Shown here piece by piece: positions 39,833 to 51,180 of a stretch of 64,000 bases of DNA (its first letter is position 1; every line of letters begins with the position of its first letter). Both the position numbers and the translations under genes were made by a program. Where the stretch lies: contig NZ_CP156688.1 in assembly GCF_040616545.1 (NCBI RefSeq), positions 806,001 through 870,000 of the forward strand. Reading direction: 5' to 3'. Below the pieces are notes generated by a model, which saw only the letters and a program-made list of their open reading frames with translations, did not search any database and was not told the DNA's origin. Source of the stretch: Akkermansia muciniphila (GTDB taxonomy: Bacteria > Verrucomicrobiota > Verrucomicrobiia > Verrucomicrobiales > Akkermansiaceae).

Positions 39833-40351
39833 ATATTGAAATAGGGTATCCTCTTCCGTTCGCCGGCCTTCCCGAAGGGGAAAAGCTCCAAGGGCAACGG
39901 ATGCCTTGCAGGGTACCTGCGGACGCCCCGGAATCAAGCCGGCAATGCAGGCGCACTTTGTCATGCCGGGAAAATACGGGAGTTCGCCCTTATGCCTTCC
40001 AAACCGTCTTGGTCTTTTCCGGAGTCCGGTTTATTAAAAGTTCCACCATACCCACCTTTGAAACAATGGTCTTCTTTCATGAGAAAATTTCTTCCAAAAA
40101 AATATGATATGATATTATTTTCAATACATTATCAATTCATTAATTTTAAAAATATGGCCTTTTTTACAAGCGCCCCTAATATGCTTGCTGCATCGTGGGC
40201 AATCCTGGTATTAAAACTAATACGCTTAATGAGGCTCCCACACTTCTCTGCTTTTACAGTTATTGCCGGAAACCTGGTTTCAACAGGCACGGCGGGTCTG
40301 GCCTTCAGGCACAGCCGTATGACGCTCCAATAAACACCCCCAACAACATCC
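39833..40351. other. Gap before the mucin-utilisation locus
   Basis: About 520 bases. The first 160 are GC-rich leader of the SMR gene. From 40020 to 40160 the sequence turns AT-rich (ATATGATATGATATTATTTTC near 40100), a plausible promoter area for the sialidase-like gene at 40352. From 40150 to 40335 both strands have short open frames with no start signal or recognised domain, perhaps gene debris. Confidence 0.4.
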
Positions 40352-41662
40352 ATGAACTTTCCTCTTACATTCTTCACCGGAACATTTCTGGTGGTCTGCG
40401 CCATGTTCCACCTGTCCTCTTCAGCAGATATGCCCTCCCGGCACTTGAACCAGTCCACCATTCCCATTATTGATCTGGATGACTGGAAGGAAGCCCAGAT
40501 CACCGTCGACAAGGAAAAAGGCCAATACCTGGGACATCCCACCACCCTGCTCCTCAAGGACGGAAAGACCATTTTATGCGTTTATCCCAAAGGCCACGGC
40601 AGCGGAGAAATTATTCTGAAAAAATCCTTTGACGGCGGCCGGACATGGGGAGACAGGCTGCCCGTCCCCGAGTCCTGGAAGAGCAGCCGGGAAGTCCCTA
40701 CGCTTTATGAGACGGAAGATGCAGCCGGGAAGCGGCACATTCTGCTCTTCAGCGGCGTTCAGGGGGGAAACAGGAACACAAAAGCCAGAAACCGGATGGC
40801 CGTCAGCGAAGATGAAGGACGCACCTGGTCCGAATTATTTCCCATTCCCAACCAACCGGGGGGAATCGTGGTCATGAGTGACCTGATTGCCTTGAAAACC
40901 GGTAAAGGCCATTATATGGCGTCCTATCATGCCAATGCCGCAGGAGAGGATGGAGAAGGAAAATTCCGTACCCTCGAACAGTACGTGACATTCACCAGGG
41001 ACGGAGGGTTAACATGGTCCGCTCCCCAGGTTATTTTTCCCGGGACAAGGAACATGCACCTGTGCGAGGGAGGATTTGTCCGCAGCCCTGACGGAAAGAC
41101 AATTGCTCTGCTATTGAGAGAAAACAGCAGGAATAACAACTCCCAAGTCATGTTTTCACAGGATGAGGGGAAAACCTGGACTGCGCCAAAAGATCTGGCG
41201 GCAGCGCTGTGCGGGGACCGCCACCAGATTCAGCCCCTGCCGGACGAACGGCTGCTGATTCAATTCCGGGACGCGCCGCCTTCCAAGAAAAAAGGACATA
41301 CCGGCACCCCTACCGAAGGGGACTGGGTAGGCTGGGTAGGCAAATGGGAAGATCTGGCGAACGGCGGGGAGGGAATGTATAGAATCCGCTTCAAGGACAA
41401 CCGCAACGGATGGGATTGCGCATACCCCGCTGCGGAACAGCTCCCGGACGGCACTCTGGTGTGCACCACCTACGGGCACTTTGACAAGGGGGAACCTCCC
41501 TACATTCTTTCCATACGCTTTCATATAAAAGATACGGACGGTATGGCGAAAGCGTATGCAAACGGATGCCGGAAGCCTATCAGAAACGATAAGGGAAAAG
41601 GAGAAACCATTTTTGATCCCAATGATCCGGCGGCCATCAACAAGTTGTTGAAACGTTCCTGA
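40352..41662 (+). CDS. Sialidase-like BNR/Asp-box protein (six-bladed propeller)
   Basis: 436 residues. Signal peptide (to about residue 24, HLSSSADM). Asp boxes SFDGGRTW, SEDEGRTW, TRDGGLTW and SQDEGKTW mark the propeller blades. Where GH33 sialidases have the RIP motif this protein has YLGHPTTLLL. A downstream CEGGFVRSPDG...LLRENSR and HQIQPLPDERLLIQFRD, plus a late Tyr (CAYPAAEQLPDG), keep several positions expected in the pocket. It may therefore act on a different acidic sugar or linkage, or only bind. It opens the locus that also contains a true sialidase, a regulator and an M60 mucinase. Confidence 0.8.
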   Translation: MNFPLTFFTGTFLVVCAMFHLSSSADMPSRHLNQSTIPIIDLDDWKEAQITVDKEKGQYLGHPTTLLLKDGKTILCVYPKGHGSGEIILKKSFDGGRTWGDRLPVPESWKSSREVPTLYETEDAAGKRHILLFSGVQGGNRNTKARNRMAVSEDEGRTWSELFPIPNQPGGIVVMSDLIALKTGKGHYMASYHANAAGEDGEGKFRTLEQYVTFTRDGGLTWSAPQVIFPGTRNMHLCEGGFVRSPDGKTIALLLRENSRNNNSQVMFSQDEGKTWTAPKDLAAALCGDRHQIQPLPDERLLIQFRDAPPSKKKGHTGTPTEGDWVGWVGKWEDLANGGEGMYRIRFKDNRNGWDCAYPAAEQLPDGTLVCTTYGHFDKGEPPYILSIRFHIKDTDGMAKAYANGCRKPIRNDKGKGETIFDPNDPAAINKLLKRS

Positions 41663-41769
41663 ACAACCGCCTCTTCCGTCTCTTCCCCGGAGTCATCTCA
41701 AACCATTCCGGGGCATGCGGCAAGCCCATGCTTGCAACACGGCGTGAAAAGGAAGTATCATTTACCTTC

Positions 41770-42867
41770 ATGAAGCGCCATGGCAAGGCATCAGCCGAAG
41801 AAATAACCGTCGCTAAACTGAAAATGCGTCTTCAGTCAGGCCGGTTCAACGGGGTGATGCCCAGTGAGCGGGAGCTGAGCCGCGAGCTGGCAGCCGGCAG
41901 GGATACCATCAGAAAAGCCCTGGCGCAGTTACAGGAAGAAGGGCTGATAGCCGCACCGGAAAAAAACAGGGTCAGGCAGGTGACAAGAACGCTCCCGGAG
42001 ACCCCTGCGAACCTGCCGAAAAAACATGTCTGCTTCCTGTCCTCCCTTCCCCTCCGCGATCTTCCGCAAAGCATCTGGGTGGAACTTCATGAACTGGGGA
42101 CTGCTCTGCGCGCCGAAGGGATGGAACTTCAATTAATGGAAGCTCCATGGACCGGAAAAGACCATTCGGAACACCGCCTGCGCAAGATAGAAGCCTCCGC
42201 ATGCTGCTATTGCTGGATACTCTATCGAACTACGGAGGAAGTGCAGCTGTGGTTTAAGAAAAAGGGCATTCCGTGCCTCGTCAGGGGAATCTCCTACCCG
42301 TCTTCCAGGCTGCCATACCTGGACACACACTGGGAAGTTCTGGTGCGCCACGCGGCGGGGTATCTGCATCAGAAAGGGCACCGCCGCGTGGCGCTCTGCA
42401 TTCCGGCCTCGAAATTGAGGGGCAACAGTTTAATGGAAAAAGGGCTTCTTTCCTTTCAAGGGGAAAAATGGGTTCCTCACCTTATCCGCATGCCTGAGGA
42501 CGCGGCACAGGCTGCCCGGGCGCTGGACCGGGCATTTCTGCGTGATCCCGGCATCACGGCGCTTATCTCCACGCGTGGCAGGATGCTTGTTTCCATCATC
42601 TCATGGGCTTCCTCCCAGGCCAGGAATATCCCGGGAGACATAAGCCTGCTGAGCCTGGTGGATGAACCCTACATCAGGCATGTCACGCCTCCCATAACAT
42701 CCTACCGCCAGCCCACGGGCAAGACGGCCCGCAGACTGATACGGATGATTGAAGCGCTGGTTGAACAACGGCGCGTATCCAACAGCCTCATCATCCCGGA
42801 ACTGTGTCCGGGAGGCTCCGTCCAGGTGATGTGCGGAAGGAGAATTGAGCCATCCGCACCACAGTAA
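41770..42867 (+). CDS. GntR-type HTH regulator with LacI-type sugar-sensing domain
   Basis: 365 residues from ATG 41770 (AAGGAAG lies upstream; an in-frame ATG at 41728 would add 14 residues). The N-terminus is a winged helix of GntR type: AKLKMRLQSGRFNGVMPSERELSRELAAGRDTIRKALAQLQEEGLI. From about residue 85 to the end is a periplasmic-binding-protein/LacI-like sensor: HVCFLSSLPLRDL, AAGYLHQKGHRRVALCIPAS, ALISTRGRMLVSIISWA, DISLLSLVDEP. Such GntR-LacI hybrids (AraR-like) answer to a sugar. Its position between two sialidase-family genes suggests it controls them, with sialic acid or a mucin sugar as effector; this is inference. Confidence 0.82.
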   Translation: MKRHGKASAEEITVAKLKMRLQSGRFNGVMPSERELSRELAAGRDTIRKALAQLQEEGLIAAPEKNRVRQVTRTLPETPANLPKKHVCFLSSLPLRDLPQSIWVELHELGTALRAEGMELQLMEAPWTGKDHSEHRLRKIEASACCYCWILYRTTEEVQLWFKKKGIPCLVRGISYPSSRLPYLDTHWEVLVRHAAGYLHQKGHRRVALCIPASKLRGNSLMEKGLLSFQGEKWVPHLIRMPEDAAQAARALDRAFLRDPGITALISTRGRMLVSIISWASSQARNIPGDISLLSLVDEPYIRHVTPPITSYRQPTGKTARRLIRMIEALVEQRRVSNSLIIPELCPGGSVQVMCGRRIEPSAPQ

Positions 42868-42870
42868 GCT

Positions 42871-44091
42871 CTACTTAATCACGGGAGCCTTCTTGCCGGC
42901 AGAGAGTCCCGTGTCCTTCCCGTCCGTCAGCCAGTCAATCGTGATGGGAACAAACTTCAGCTTCTTGATATGCGGCTGGTTCTCCTCATAAAGCACGCCT
43001 ACTACGCCGGGCTCCACCATGGCAAGGCTGGAATAGGCAAAACCGCCTTCTCCCAGCAGTTTTTTCACCGGCCAGGTCTTGCCGTTGTCATAGCTCATTG
43101 CCACCTGCCCCTTGATGCGCCGTCCGGCGCTGGGTCCGGAAAACAGAATGCGGCTCTTGCCGCCAAAGGCAGGCTGGTCCGTCAGAGAATAAGTCATCAG
43201 GGAATTCTGCGTGCTGTCGCAAAACAATTCCGGAGCATCTTCCACTTCACCCCATGTCTCTCCGCCGTCCTGCGACCACACGATGCGGCGGCAATTGCCT
43301 CCGCCCCAGTGGCGCGCGACCATGACCACGCCTCCGTTATCCGTTTCCGCGATGGACGTTTCATTCACCAGGCCCTTCATATTGGCGGTTGGCTGGCTCT
43401 GCTTCCAGCTTTTGCCGCCGTCATCACTGTAAATGCAGGAAATCACCCACTTGCCGAACGGTCCTTCATTCATCGGAATTACCAGACGCCCCTTGTGGGG
43501 GCCGCTCCTCAACTGCGCTCCGGAATTCGGGCCGGAAGCCATGATATCCACGCCCGTGGGGCGCTTGGTCGTCTTCGTGATATCCTCCGGCTTCGTCCAG
43601 GTGGCGCCTCCGTTCCTGCTCTGGATCATGAAATTGCGGATGCACTTCTCATCATCCCATCCCTGGGGGATATTGGGCTGCCGTTCCTTGACCCCGGCGG
43701 GATAACGCTGGAACACGACAGTCACCGTCTTGGTTTTGGCATCATAAACCGGGCAGGGATTATTAAAGGTGGCCCCATGCGACTTGGCGATCGCCCGGGG
43801 ACGTGACCAGGTCTTCCCGCCATTCTTGCTGACGCTCATGATCAGGTCATTTTCCCCCTGGTCCGTATTCTTGTACCGGCCTTCGGCAAACGCCAGAAGC
43901 TGCCCCTTGCCGAGGCTGAGCAATGCGGGAATGCGGATGGACGCATAAGGATTCCCCTCCCCTGCGCTGAACACGGTCACGGCGTTATCCGTGGGAAAGC
44001 CGGCCTTTTCTTCTTGCCCCAATGCCGGCAATGCCACGGCGCATACGGCACTCATCAAACACTTGAATACGGAATTCATCATCCTCTTCAT
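42871..44091 (-). CDS. GH33 exo-sialidase
   Basis: 406 residues from ATG 44091, with a signal peptide (SAVCAVALPALGQ). It has the catalytic arginine in RIP (YASIRIPALL, R53) and AFAEGRYKNTDQGENDLIM (Arg and acid/base Asp). Asp boxes SKNGGKTW, SRNGGATW, SDDGGKSW and SQDGGETW follow, then the nucleophile-side Glu in VNETSIAETDNG, further Arg (NCRRIVWS, GPSAGRR) and Tyr in GGFAYSSLAMV. The set looks complete, so an active sialidase releasing terminal Neu5Ac from mucin is expected. It is convergent with the regulator (3-base gap) and probably corresponds to the A. muciniphila sialidase Amuc_0625. Confidence 0.92.
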   Translation of the reverse strand: MKRMMNSVFKCLMSAVCAVALPALGQEEKAGFPTDNAVTVFSAGEGNPYASIRIPALLSLGKGQLLAFAEGRYKNTDQGENDLIMSVSKNGGKTWSRPRAIAKSHGATFNNPCPVYDAKTKTVTVVFQRYPAGVKERQPNIPQGWDDEKCIRNFMIQSRNGGATWTKPEDITKTTKRPTGVDIMASGPNSGAQLRSGPHKGRLVIPMNEGPFGKWVISCIYSDDGGKSWKQSQPTANMKGLVNETSIAETDNGGVVMVARHWGGGNCRRIVWSQDGGETWGEVEDAPELFCDSTQNSLMTYSLTDQPAFGGKSRILFSGPSAGRRIKGQVAMSYDNGKTWPVKKLLGEGGFAYSSLAMVEPGVVGVLYEENQPHIKKLKFVPITIDWLTDGKDTGLSAGKKAPVIK

Positions 44092-44734
44092 CCTATTCCA
44101 CTTTCTCTTTCCGCACAACAGCCATGTCATGCATTCGAGTGAAGACCAGAGGAAACTCTTGAGGAATGAAGGCAACCAATTCGGTCTTCCGCAGGTCTAC
44201 CGGATGCCGTTACGCCTTCCGGAAGAAGGGAGTCAAAAACACGCCTTCCGGGCAATTCATGACTCGGTAATCATGCGCCTCCTTTTTCCGCCTCTTGGCA
44301 GAGATTTCACGTCAGGACTCTCAGATGGGGAAAAATCGGACCAATAACAGCCGTGGCTGTGCCGCACGTGACGAAATACCCGTTAAAAAGAAACCTGCGG
44401 GAAGCAATCGTTCCCTGATGAAGCCATTCTCCCAGAGGTCATACTCTCAATATGAAAATATGTCAGGATCTCAAAACTGATAGGAACACGCATCCATGGA
44501 ATGTTGCTATTCCTGGCGGGAACTCTTTCAGGGAAAATGAAAAACGATGTCGCGTACGGAAGAGCGCGGCTTCTCCCAGCCGGATGGGAAACCTCGGCGG
44601 TAATACATTTGCAGCCGGGAAACAGAGGGGCCGGCAACGGGATGCCCATGAAATGTAACGAGAAACATAACGATGGACACTAAGGAAACACGGCCATCTT
44701 TGGATGAATGATCCAGGCATAAACTGAAAGACAT
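44092..44734. other. Intergenic stretch upstream of the sialidase gene
   Basis: About 640 bases. Several short frames of 60-120 codons exist on both strands, none with a start signal, domain or consistent codon bias. The first 100 bases should include the sialidase promoter on the minus strand; no clear -35/-10 pair stands out. Confidence 0.4.
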
Positions 44735-46246: not shown

Positions 46247-47572
46247 CTACCTGGGATCCGTCTTGTTCATCCTGCCCCGGGAATCCAGGGGATAATCGAA
46301 AAACGGGCACCAGTTATCCATGCGGTACACGACGTCCTGAATCCGGGTCTTAACCTTCTCCCCCTGGGAATCCCGAAGGCATCCGCGCGCGCCGGTACGT
46401 GGACCGGAGGGAAGCTTCTCCTTCAAGGTCATCCCATACCGGAGGCGGCAGCCGGAAGGGTCCGACGATGTTACGATGCGGACGACATTTTTACCGTTCA
46501 AGCTGACGGACTTGATCTCCAGAGGCTCCTCCCGGCCGTTCACGAGGGAAAAACCGTAATTGCCCGGATCAAGAATCGTCCTGGTATCCAGCACCAGAGG
46601 AGGCACAGGCGCAAAAAACTTCACGTCTACCGTCCAGTCCTGCCCCTTCCTGCCGATTGCATGGGCGACGGGATGGATGGGCTTCCACTTCACGCCTTCC
46701 ACCATCACCTTATACATGACGTATCCGGCATACTCCCCGTAAAGCCGGGACATGGGAGCCGTCAAATGCACCCCGTCGCTATAGGTGAAATGATACATGG
46801 GCGTGGTCATGATGTACCGGCTGTCTTTCTCCAGGGCCAGATCCAGCTGGGCCACGGCAATCACGGGGTAGTCCGTGGGATTCTGGGCAAAATAATTGAG
46901 GTGGGAAGAAACCTGGTACCCGAAGCACAGCACGTCATTCTTCTGCCCGGTAACGGCCTTGGCGTCCGCGTCAATATCATGGATCAGGGCGCGCATCCTC
47001 TCCTTATACCACTCCCCGGTTTTCCTGTCCTGCTGGTCGGTTTCCCCCTGCGTCCACAGGAAACAGGGCATGGAAAAGGTCTTTCCGGCCTTGGCCGCTA
47101 GCTCGCGGCCCGCTTTTAAATCATCCAGAATGCGTTGATAAGGAGCCTTCCCTTTGGAGAGGACGCCTATGCTGACACCGCCCACACCGTCGGCAGAGCA
47201 CAGGAACCGGACCCTGGCGGACTTTCCGGCATCGCGCTTCTTCAGCAGGCGCATGAAATTACCGGCCGCTCCGGAAACGGGCGTCTCCCCCCTGGCGCCG
47301 TCCGGAGAAACTCTCTCCACCAGAGGAACTACGGCGCTCCGGTCATTGCCGCCCTCAAAAGGCCGCACACCGCCCTTGAACATCAAATTGCCGTCCTTCT
47401 GCTCCGTGGTTACGACCGGCTTGGCCGTCCAACCTACGGAAAGCGACTGCCCATAAGACGGGACGTAATTCCATGCCGTCAACACGGGCTTCTGCGCAAA
47501 ACTGCACGGGATCGCCGCCATCAACAGGCAGAAAAGAACGCCGGAACGGACACATGTATTCATCTTCATCAT
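46247..47572 (-). CDS. Sialate O-acetylesterase-like SGNH hydrolase
   Basis: 441 residues. Signal peptide (GVLFCLLMAAIPCSFAQ). Block I SYGQSLSVGW supplies the nucleophile Ser, CFLWTQGETDQQ is the SASA-type W.QGE.D block, and YSDGVHLTA gives the Asp/His pair. These fit the SASA/CE6-like SGNH esterases that remove O-acetyl groups from sialic acids or plant glycans. The C-terminal 110 residues form a separate beta-rich module. Within a locus that has a sialidase and a mucinase, trimming acetylated sialic acid of mucin is the natural role. Start: two tandem ATGs (47572, 47569) are both possible. Confidence 0.82.
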   Translation of the reverse strand: MMKMNTCVRSGVLFCLLMAAIPCSFAQKPVLTAWNYVPSYGQSLSVGWTAKPVVTTEQKDGNLMFKGGVRPFEGGNDRSAVVPLVERVSPDGARGETPVSGAAGNFMRLLKKRDAGKSARVRFLCSADGVGGVSIGVLSKGKAPYQRILDDLKAGRELAAKAGKTFSMPCFLWTQGETDQQDRKTGEWYKERMRALIHDIDADAKAVTGQKNDVLCFGYQVSSHLNYFAQNPTDYPVIAVAQLDLALEKDSRYIMTTPMYHFTYSDGVHLTAPMSRLYGEYAGYVMYKVMVEGVKWKPIHPVAHAIGRKGQDWTVDVKFFAPVPPLVLDTRTILDPGNYGFSLVNGREEPLEIKSVSLNGKNVVRIVTSSDPSGCRLRYGMTLKEKLPSGPRTGARGCLRDSQGEKVKTRIQDVVYRMDNWCPFFDYPLDSRGRMNKTDPR

Positions 47573-49659: not shown

Positions 49660-51180
49660 ATGAACCGGATCATTTCATTCCTCTCCCTTCCCCTGCTGTC
49701 GCTCGCAACAGTATTTGCCGCCAACACGCCGGAAAGTATCGGCAATGATCTCCAGCTATTCAAGGATGCCTCCTGCACGGCCCTGAAACAGGATGTTAAG
49801 GACACTTCCACCTTCCAGTCTGACGCGATGAAGGAACTCGCGGGCAAAATCTTGGCAGGCAACTACAAGCCGGACTACCTGTATGCCGAATATCAGGCCC
49901 TCCCCTCACCCCGCCAGACGGGCAAAAATCTCAGAATCGGAGATGGATTCAGCAAATACGACAACATGACGGGTGTCTACCTGGAAAAAGGGCAGCACGT
50001 CGTGCTGGTAGGCAAGACGGATGGACGTGAAATCAGCCTCCTGCTCCCGAACCTGATGCGCAAGCCGGCCGAAGGAGTACAGCCGACGAAAGACCCCAAC
50101 GGCTGGGGACTGCACAAAAAGCAAATTCCCCTCAAGGAAGGAATCAACATCATTGATGTGGAAACGCCCGCCAACGCCTACATCAGTTATTTTACTAATG
50201 ATGCCGATACGGCTCCGAAAATCCCCGTCCATTTCGTGACGGGCAAGGTCAACGGGTATTTCGACACCACCCGGGGCGACACCAACGAAGACTGGGTACG
50301 CCTGCTTGACCAAGCCGTCTCTCCGATTATGGACGCCCGGGGAAAATACATCCAGGTGGCCTATCCCATCGAATTCCTGAAAAAATTCACCAGGGACCGC
50401 GGTACCGAACTGATCGACGCCTATGACAAGCTGATTGGCATTCAATACCAATTGATGGGCCTCGATAAATACGGCAAAATCCCGAAAAACCGCGTCTTTG
50501 CCCGCGTGAACTTCAACTACTACATGTTCCGCGACGGCGACGGAGTCGCCTATCTGGGAGACAACGGCACCATGCGGATGGTGACTGATCCGAAAAACGT
50601 CCTCAAGGGCGACGCCTGCTGGGGGTTCTCCCATGAAGTCGGACACGTCATGCAAATGCGCCCGATGACCTGGGGCGGCATGACGGAGGTCAGCAACAAT
50701 ATTTTCTCTCTTCAAGCCGCCGCCAAAACGGGCAACGAAAGCCGCTTGAAGCGCCAGGGCAGCTACGACAAAGCGCGCAAGGAAATCATCGACGGAAAAA
50801 TCGCCTACCTGGAATCAAAGGACGTCTTCAACAAGCTGGTCCCCCTGTGGCAACTCCATCTTTACTTTACCAAAAACGGGCATCCCGACTTCTACCCTGA
50901 CGTCATGGAATACCTGCGCAACAACGCGGGAAACTACGGCGGAAATGAAACGATCAAATACCAGTTCGAATTCATCAAAGCCTGCTGCGACGTCACAAAA
51001 ACCGACCTGACCGACTTCTTCGAGAAATGGGGATTCTTCAAAACCGGGCAATTCAAAATCGGTGACTACGCTAATTACGATTTCACCGTCACTCCTGAAA
51101 TGGTGGCTGAAACAAAAAAATGGATTACTGATAAAAGCTACCCGAAACCTGAAACTGATATCGTCGGAATAAGTGAATAG
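49660..51180 (+). CDS. M60-family mucin-degrading metalloprotease
   Basis: 506 residues. Signal peptide MNRIISFLSLPLLSLATVFA. A beta-sandwich N-terminal domain (about 25-195) precedes the peptidase M60/enhancin-like catalytic domain with the zinc motif HEVGH at 325-329 (catalytic Glu326) and the third ligand Glu343 in GGMTEVSNN. I recall that the A. muciniphila mucinase AM0627 has 506 residues and that its inactive mutant is E326A, so both length and numbering agree. AM0627 cleaves between adjacent O-glycosylated Ser/Thr in mucins after partial trimming. The gene ends the locus; the adenine methylase island begins within 0.9 kb downstream. Confidence 0.94.
   Translation: MNRIISFLSLPLLSLATVFAANTPESIGNDLQLFKDASCTALKQDVKDTSTFQSDAMKELAGKILAGNYKPDYLYAEYQALPSPRQTGKNLRIGDGFSKYDNMTGVYLEKGQHVVLVGKTDGREISLLLPNLMRKPAEGVQPTKDPNGWGLHKKQIPLKEGINIIDVETPANAYISYFTNDADTAPKIPVHFVTGKVNGYFDTTRGDTNEDWVRLLDQAVSPIMDARGKYIQVAYPIEFLKKFTRDRGTELIDAYDKLIGIQYQLMGLDKYGKIPKNRVFARVNFNYYMFRDGDGVAYLGDNGTMRMVTDPKNVLKGDACWGFSHEVGHVMQMRPMTWGGMTEVSNNIFSLQAAAKTGNESRLKRQGSYDKARKEIIDGKIAYLESKDVFNKLVPLWQLHLYFTKNGHPDFYPDVMEYLRNNAGNYGGNETIKYQFEFIKACCDVTKTDLTDFFEKWGFFKTGQFKIGDYANYDFTVTPEMVAETKKWITDKSYPKPETDIVGISE

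Follow-up and report, generated by a model that had tools for sequence, protein, structure and literature searches.

The number of sialidases credited to Akkermansia muciniphila depends on how one protein, Amuc_0623, is regarded, and printed statements on its activity disagree. The subject here is a protein taken as its ortholog, encoded at positions 40352-41662 of a 64,000-nucleotide stretch of A. muciniphila DNA (NCBI RefSeq assembly GCF_040616545.1, contig NZ_CP156688.1, positions 806,001 to 870,000 of the forward strand), hereafter the window. It lacks the arginine of the RIP motif found in GH33 sialidases, a loss that turns out to be the hallmark of a whole family, here called YxGHP.

What has been reported about Amuc_0623? 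In the relevant passages of PMC10067855, of four candidate sialidases expressed, three showed activity on 3'-sialyllactose (3'SL), 6'-sialyllactose (6'SL), sialyl-Lea, and alpha2,8 oligomers, and Amuc_0623 was inactive. The methods of the same paper, as excerpted, include a 4MU-Neu5Ac/DANA assay with Amuc_0623 at 200 nM, which suggests a measurable rate, and the text mentions an earlier report of Amuc_0623 activity by an indirect assay. An excerpt of PMC11790493 counts three sialidases in A. muciniphila and labels Amuc_0623 GHnc (unclassified), tested on three sialylated substrates, while one from PMC12018670 places it among four sialidases and gives a predicted six-blade fold. A table row for Amuc_0623 in the review PMC4747158 lists Neu5Ac, Neu5Gc, Neu5Prop, and KDN substrates, with plus signs that, in the extract at hand, are not assignable with certainty. 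In a passage of PMC9415379, Amuc_0623 is a very distant relative of sialidases that is absent from strains H1 and H2. Labels also vary: a passage of PMC11684322 calls Amuc_0146 a sialidase and Amuc_0623 a "fructosidase," and since the excerpts of PMC10067855 have Amuc_0146 as a fucosidase, the two labels look swapped. A literature search found no description of the YxGHP family with its fusions, which is no proof of absence, and a search on Neu5Ac2en, hydratase, and sialidase together found nothing.

The open reading frame (ORF) encodes 436 amino acids (aa), begins with ATG, and stays open throughout. The protein matches Pfam BNR_2 at 2.3e-15, and BNR, BNR_2, and T6SS Tli3 all lie above cut-off; the Tli3 match is taken as a shared Asp-box match. 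No family was found for it in NCBIfam (E up to 1) or PHROGs (E up to 0.001). The features of the gene, and the GH33 neighbour with which it is compared, are as follows.

40352..41662, + strand, RIP-less sialidase-fold protein of the YxGHP family, Amuc_0623 ortholog (ORF, homology, and model)
40352..40426, + strand, probable Sec signal peptide, residues 1-25, a hydrophobic leader (judged by eye; the model has low pLDDT here)
40526..40546, + strand, YLGHPTT, residues 59-65, at the place of the RIP motif (sequence and family alignment)
40595..40597, + strand, H82, flanking the deletion in which the GH33 acid/base Asp is lost (hhalign; invariant, 114/114)
40625..40648, + strand, Asp box 1, residues 92-99 (read from the sequence)
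40805..40828, + strand, Asp box 2, residues 152-159 (read from the sequence)
40994..41017, + strand, Asp box 3, residues 215-222, with Thr replacing Ser (read from the sequence)
41066..41068, + strand, E239, paired with the GH33 catalytic Glu (hhalign; 114/114)
41117..41119, + strand, R256, paired with R288, second Arg of the GH33 triad (hhalign; 114/114)
41156..41179, + strand, Asp box 4, residues 269-276 (read from the sequence)
41213..41224, + strand, GDRH, residues 288-291, at the start of blade 5; G288, R290, and H291 in 114/114, D289 in 113/114 (model and family alignment)
41267..41269, + strand, R306, where strand 2 of blade 5 ends, candidate replacement for the third triad Arg (model; 114/114)
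41423..41425, + strand, Y358, paired with the GH33 nucleophile Tyr, Y381 (hhalign; 114/114)
42871..44175, - strand, canonical GH33 sialidase with the full catalytic set, Amuc_0625-type (Pfam and alignment)

The first-pass annotation had put YLGHPTT at the place of the catalytic RIP motif, had counted four Asp boxes and several retained late pocket residues, and had called the neighbour complete, and all of this held up. In an ungapped hand alignment through a shared Pro (P63, the neighbour's P83), G61 stands opposite the RIP Arg, R81; the pairing comes from the hand alignment, as the hhalign comparison of the family and GH33 profiles begins only after the motif. That comparison (98.8% probability, E 1.1e-16) pairs E239 with E272, R256 with R288, and Y358 with Y381, and it shows the YxGHP profile to lack a stretch of 5 residues that includes the GH33 acid/base Asp, D105. 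Neither this deletion nor the invariance of R290 and R306 had been remarked on in the first-pass annotation. The neighbour carries R81, D105, E272, R288, R353, and Y381, all of which are invariant among 24 aligned GH33 sequences except D105, which is kept in at least 90%. The RIP Arg position is Gly in 114/114 YxGHP domains versus Arg in 24/24 GH33 sequences. Around the R353 position, which strand order puts at 321-324, the YxGHP family has no common Arg. To judge from the sequence, R306 or R290 may replace this third triad Arg in space, and both are candidates to fill the site of the RIP Arg.

Is the loss peculiar to one gene? Among the positions examined, Y59, G61, H82, G83, P116, C238, E239, R256, G288, R290, H291, R300, R306, W328, D355, Y358, and Y374 are found in 114/114 aligned YxGHP domains, and H62, E257, and D289 in 113/114. 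The window protein has the hallmark set Y59, G61, H82, E239, R256, R290, H291, R306, D355, and Y358. Because the site is invariant over 114 domains, the missing RIP Arg characterizes the family as a whole, in a site otherwise tightly kept, and is not a one-off loss; the window protein is not a decayed sialidase. Decay or sequencing error was ruled out by the open frame and by the invariance of the site over the family. Relatives came in part from a species collection with at least 593 pattern matches, 485 relatives among them, of which the best 80 were kept; by their titles, these 80 belong to Planctomycetota, Verrucomicrobiota, Bacteroidota, Acidobacteriota, and others, and they are mostly metagenome-assembled. 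Two loci with X residues (L076 and L108) were left out of one alignment step, so that 78 remained, and the structure alignment A2 holds 66 of the 78 after an 80% redundancy filter. Cluster 0 of the single-linkage clustering (113 members, including sulfatases, GH2, and others) was split by Pfam and hidden Markov model, and its non-relatives were not counted. Relatives were also drawn from a sample of 288 Verrucomicrobiota genomes, 33 of which had a YxGHP match at E <= 1e-20.

The AlphaFold model of the window protein (67 sequences; pLDDT 86.6, pTM 0.84) is a predicted six-bladed propeller with Asp boxes. By its strand order, blade 4 contains E239 and R256 and blade 5 contains R290 and R306; Y358 comes directly before the first strand of blade 6. 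The top VIA match is 5hx0 (Z 33.3), and the other 49 rows of that list (Z 28.6-31.4; root mean square deviation 2.5-3.2 A over 301-327 residues) are nearly all sialidases; both Foldseek and VIA-align group the protein with 5hx0 and sialidases. Sequence searches of solved structures listed mostly sialidase-type chains over partial length and a few others, such as 5hx0 and the designed 4j9t, with no close YxGHP relative among the matches listed. The model of the GH33 neighbour (3 sequences, pLDDT 70.3) was used for rough blade assignment only.

What need has a sialidase of a RIP-less twin? Repeated fusion turns an orphan into this testable question, and the repeated YxGHP-GH33 fusion is the strongest new evidence of linkage. 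Of the 114 YxGHP domains, 12 lie on one polypeptide with a GH33 domain, and both orders occur: YxGHP-GH33 in 8 (L018, L083, L084, two in L106, L116, L120, and L123) and GH33-YxGHP in 4 (L031, L034, L067, and L098), the GH33 part of L031, L067, and L098 being incomplete where it runs off the end of the DNA. On a quick tree, the fused and single labels change 8 times, at least 6 of these changes being forced by starred branches. Where the N-terminal part of the fused GH33 partner is covered, 8/9 keep RIP, D, E, R, R, and Y. The GH33-like half of L120:3245-5470, with RFP for RIP and Thr for the acid/base Asp, is a second altered sialidase domain. By Pfam, there are also fusions to a GH2 beta-galactosidase (L090), a sulfatase (L109), and an FAD oxidoreductase of the FAD_oxidored type (L026). 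FAD-dependent oxidoreductases recur with the YQGHP subgroup, fused in L026 (Pfam) and L031 (by eye) and adjoining in L220 (by eye), and L220 also has a NanM-symporter fusion.

Linkage is seen at the level of the genome as well. GH33 is fused or lies no more than 10 kb away in 6/33 family-bearing Verrucomicrobiota genomes, where about 0.15 pairs would be expected (P 1.6e-8); with the two Akkermansia removed, 4 were observed versus 0.14 expected (P 1.4e-5). Hit counts for this expectation scored at most 6 candidates per genome, and the pair in G273 was added from the fusion analysis, its GH33 part not having appeared in the GH33 search. A GH33 match occurs in 16/33 genomes with YxGHP versus 47/255 without (Fisher P 4e-4, kinship ignored).

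Nan-type neighbours were counted up to 10 kb, with a crude ORF caller, BLAST clusters, and unequal locus lengths, so that genes may be missed. On this count, 15/80 loci have at least one nan-type gene and 8/80 have two or more, these being of the DHDPS/sialate-lyase type in 10 loci, N-acyl-D-glucosamine 2-epimerase (AGE) in 7, a NanM-symporter fusion in 4, and a SASA cluster in 4 (3/4 confirmed by Pfam). NanM fusions adjoin YxGHP members in G337 and G314. AGE was observed in 6/50 loci, whereas the density of its 47 matches across those 50 genomes would predict 0.13 (Poisson P 5e-9); of two AGE proteins run against NCBIfam, that of L072 passes the curated cut-off and that of L119 does not. A nearby AGE suggests an N-acylated sialic acid, and in such loci the first-pass annotation's idea of a different nonulosonate, Kdn for instance, is therefore not the preferred one. 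All 15 genomes with a nan-type gene at the family locus (15/15) also carry GH33-profile matches, so YxGHP fits the role of a partner and not a substitute. A role as the sole sialidase of nan clusters, replacing GH33, is not supported.

We give slightly better than an even chance to the reading that YxGHP proteins are a separate clan-E family of catalytic-looking, probably secreted propellers that work beside GH33 on sialic-acid-bearing glycans, or on a form of sialic acid (a 2-ulosonate) to which GH33 is poorly suited. What is established is the fold, the invariant altered site, the repeated GH33 fusion, and, for part of the family, the nan-type clusters; activity and substrate are inferred. 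A good deal weighs against this reading. None of the four nan-type clusters was found in 65/80 loci. In the 35 Verrucomicrobiota genomes searched, AGE lies within 10 kb of a family member in 0/35 and NanM in 2/35; the evidence for enrichment thus comes from the 80 best relatives, a set close to the query, and the count of 0/35 lowered our estimate of this reading and raised that of a different sugar. GH33 directly adjoins AGE and/or NanM in G086, G180, G273, G244, G247, and G254, and no YxGHP was found on those contigs. Three family-bearing genomes, G092 (100% complete and in one contig), G094, and G308, gave no GH33 match at 1e-8. The members of a Bacteroidales branch (L047, L048, L052, L057, and L060) have a xylose-isomerase-like protein and a lactonase as conserved neighbours, joined by a Gfo/Idh oxidoreductase in 4/5 loci; one protein of each kind was named by Pfam. 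The lyase-like neighbours match N-acetylneuraminate lyase best in 5/5 tested, but below the curated cut-off. To this must be added the inactivity of Amuc_0623 mentioned above, and a statement in the excerpts of PMC10067855 that neither sialic acid nor fucose feeds A. muciniphila, so that a catabolic role is not simply transferable to this organism.

Several of the same observations are what one would expect if YxGHP acted on a different capped sugar (another ulosonate, or an anionic or neutral sugar), GH33 being close by because the two share glycan targets. The 65/80 loci with no nan-type gene, the 0/35 and 2/35 counts, the Bacteroidales isomerase-like, lactonase, and Gfo/Idh context, genomes with no GH33 match such as G092, and the fusions to FAD_oxidored (L026), GH2 (L090), and sulfatase (L109) all point this way. 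The fusion to GH33, repeated and in both orders, the enrichment of AGE in the 50 loci tested, and the retention of the Tyr/Glu pair and R256 speak for sialic acid instead, and we regard a different sugar as unlikely, if still a serious contender. A Tyr/Glu pair with a triad Arg is a hallmark of sialidases.

Does the protein cleave anything at all? The first-pass annotation had proposed either a changed substrate or a binding role. The former gains indirect support from the altered site as a family hallmark and from the lack of activity of Amuc_0623 on 3'SL, 6'SL, sialyl-Lea, and alpha2,8 oligomers in the PMC10067855 excerpts. That same inactivity, together with the lost RIP Arg and acid/base Asp, would also suit a catalytically dead sialidase fold serving as a module that binds sialic acid or glycans and thereby targets the GH33 partner, and the fused GH33 domains have the intact sites that such an arrangement would lead one to expect. 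Pure binding is nevertheless less likely, because the nucleophile pair (Y358/E239) and the positions Y59, H82, R256, R290, H291, R306, D355, and Y374 are kept in 114/114, which is unusual for a non-cleaving lectin, and 102/114 rows have no GH33 domain; we consider a dead module improbable. Less probable still is an ordinary broad-specificity exo-sialidase whose triad has been rebuilt by other Args. The new R290 and R306 would allow for it, as would the listing among four sialidases (PMC12018670), the table row in PMC4747158, uncertain as its plus signs are, and the earlier indirect assay and the 200 nM 4MU-Neu5Ac/DANA assay in the excerpts of PMC10067855. Against it stand that 2023 paper's own negative result on the four kinds of sialoside and the count of three sialidases in the PMC11790493 extract, where Amuc_0623 is labelled GHnc.

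How might a sialic-acid enzyme of the favoured kind work with such a site? Enzymes that act on an anomeric carbon bearing a carboxylate typically pair a neutral Tyr nucleophile with a Glu, and a 2-ulosonate would therefore be the likeliest substrate class. The retained pair (Y358/E239) would attack the anomeric carbon of the 2-ulosonate, and R256 with R290/R306 might hold the carboxylate in place of the RIP Arg. With the acid/base Asp gone, the proton would have to come from an invariant His (H82, H62, or H291) replacing it, unless the leaving group needs none. Loss of the Asp would fit turnover of good leaving groups or of nonstandard sialic acid forms rather than plain 3'- or 6'-sialyllactose, and a mechanism of this sort could explain how 4MU-Neu5Ac might be turned over while natural sialosides are not. 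A bolder version, which we hold only tentatively and with more doubt than belief, is a new clan-E enzyme family in which the carboxylate site has been rebuilt and a canonical general acid is missing, and which forms with GH33 a recurring two-enzyme machine that converts a form GH33 leaves, such as O-modified or sulfated sialosides or the GH33 side products 2,7-anhydro-Neu5Ac or Neu5Ac2en. If the twin does act on modified sialic acids or sialidase side products, present pathway maps lack a portion of how mucins and environmental sialoglycans are degraded; should it do no more than bind, it would be a propeller lectin made from a sialidase.

Within Akkermansia, the gene is far from universal. 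A full-length ortholog was found in 4/76 genomes of the genus sample and some match in 24/76, the matches beyond the four being weak, partial ones, several of which fall on GH33 genes. The ortholog in G005 (78% identity, at 731,382-732,629) lies at the place of an A. muciniphila structural variant (731-734 kb) that, in the passages of PMC10654443, contains Amuc_0622 to Amuc_0625 and is linked to immune checkpoint inhibitor response, and the window protein is therefore taken as the ortholog of Amuc_0623. In G009, a genome assigned to the same species, some 2.8 kb of different DNA (L224:10256-13086), with a 531-aa ORF that has no Pfam match, takes the place of window positions 39972-42760. A GntR/LacI-type regulator, downstream of the gene in the window, also adjoins the ortholog in G005 (DNA match) and G002 (Pfam), and none was seen beside that of G011; in G002, ortholog and regulator have different flanks, and there is no GH33 match on that contig. 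Within the window, the GH33 gene and a SASA esterase are close to the YxGHP gene by Pfam. The surrounding features are as follows.

39972..42760, strand not applicable, strain-variable segment with the YxGHP gene and the regulator (genome comparison with G009)
41728..42867, + strand, regulator with a GntR-type helix-turn-helix and a LacI-type sugar-binding domain, 65 bp downstream of the YxGHP gene (Pfam)
46247-47572, SASA-type esterase, about 2 kb past the GH33 gene (Pfam 1.4e-8)
49660-51180, M60-type peptidase (Pfam 2.7e-50)

Overall, how does the protein stand among the systems already described? With GH33 exo-sialidases such as AmGH33A (Amuc_0625), Porphyromonas gingivalis PG_0352, and the Micromonospora viridifaciens sialidase, it shares the six-bladed propeller, the Asp boxes, the Tyr/Glu pair, and an Arg that aligns with the second of the triad. 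Unlike them, it has Gly for the RIP Arg, a deletion in place of the acid/base Asp, and no third triad Arg at the corresponding backbone position, and it brings in the new invariant residues R290, R306, and H82. AmGH181 (Amuc_1547) resembles it in organism group, in fold group, and in having an altered Arg triad, that of GH181 consisting of two Arg and a Gln in the PMC10067855 excerpts. GH181, however, has Gln for the nucleophile Tyr, preceded by His, whereas Y358 is kept in 114/114 YxGHP domains, with A, G, or T as the residue before it in alignment A1; the window protein, furthermore, has lost its RIP Arg and has no C-terminal domain of the carbohydrate-binding module type, ending at residue 436 with the aligned propeller reaching to about 400. 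Lacking both the RIP Arg and the acid/base Asp, it is by its sequence not a strict GH33, nor is it a GH181, and yet its action may well be that of a sialidase-type enzyme. The top structural match, 5hx0 (Dfer_1899, function unknown), is only 16-19% identical to it. Its closest described counterpart is Amuc_0623 of A. muciniphila ATCC BAA-835, the 78% identical ortholog from a different Akkermansia genome. The protein as such is thus already known; as far as the literature search goes, what is new is the site kept throughout the family and its repeated fusion to true sialidases.
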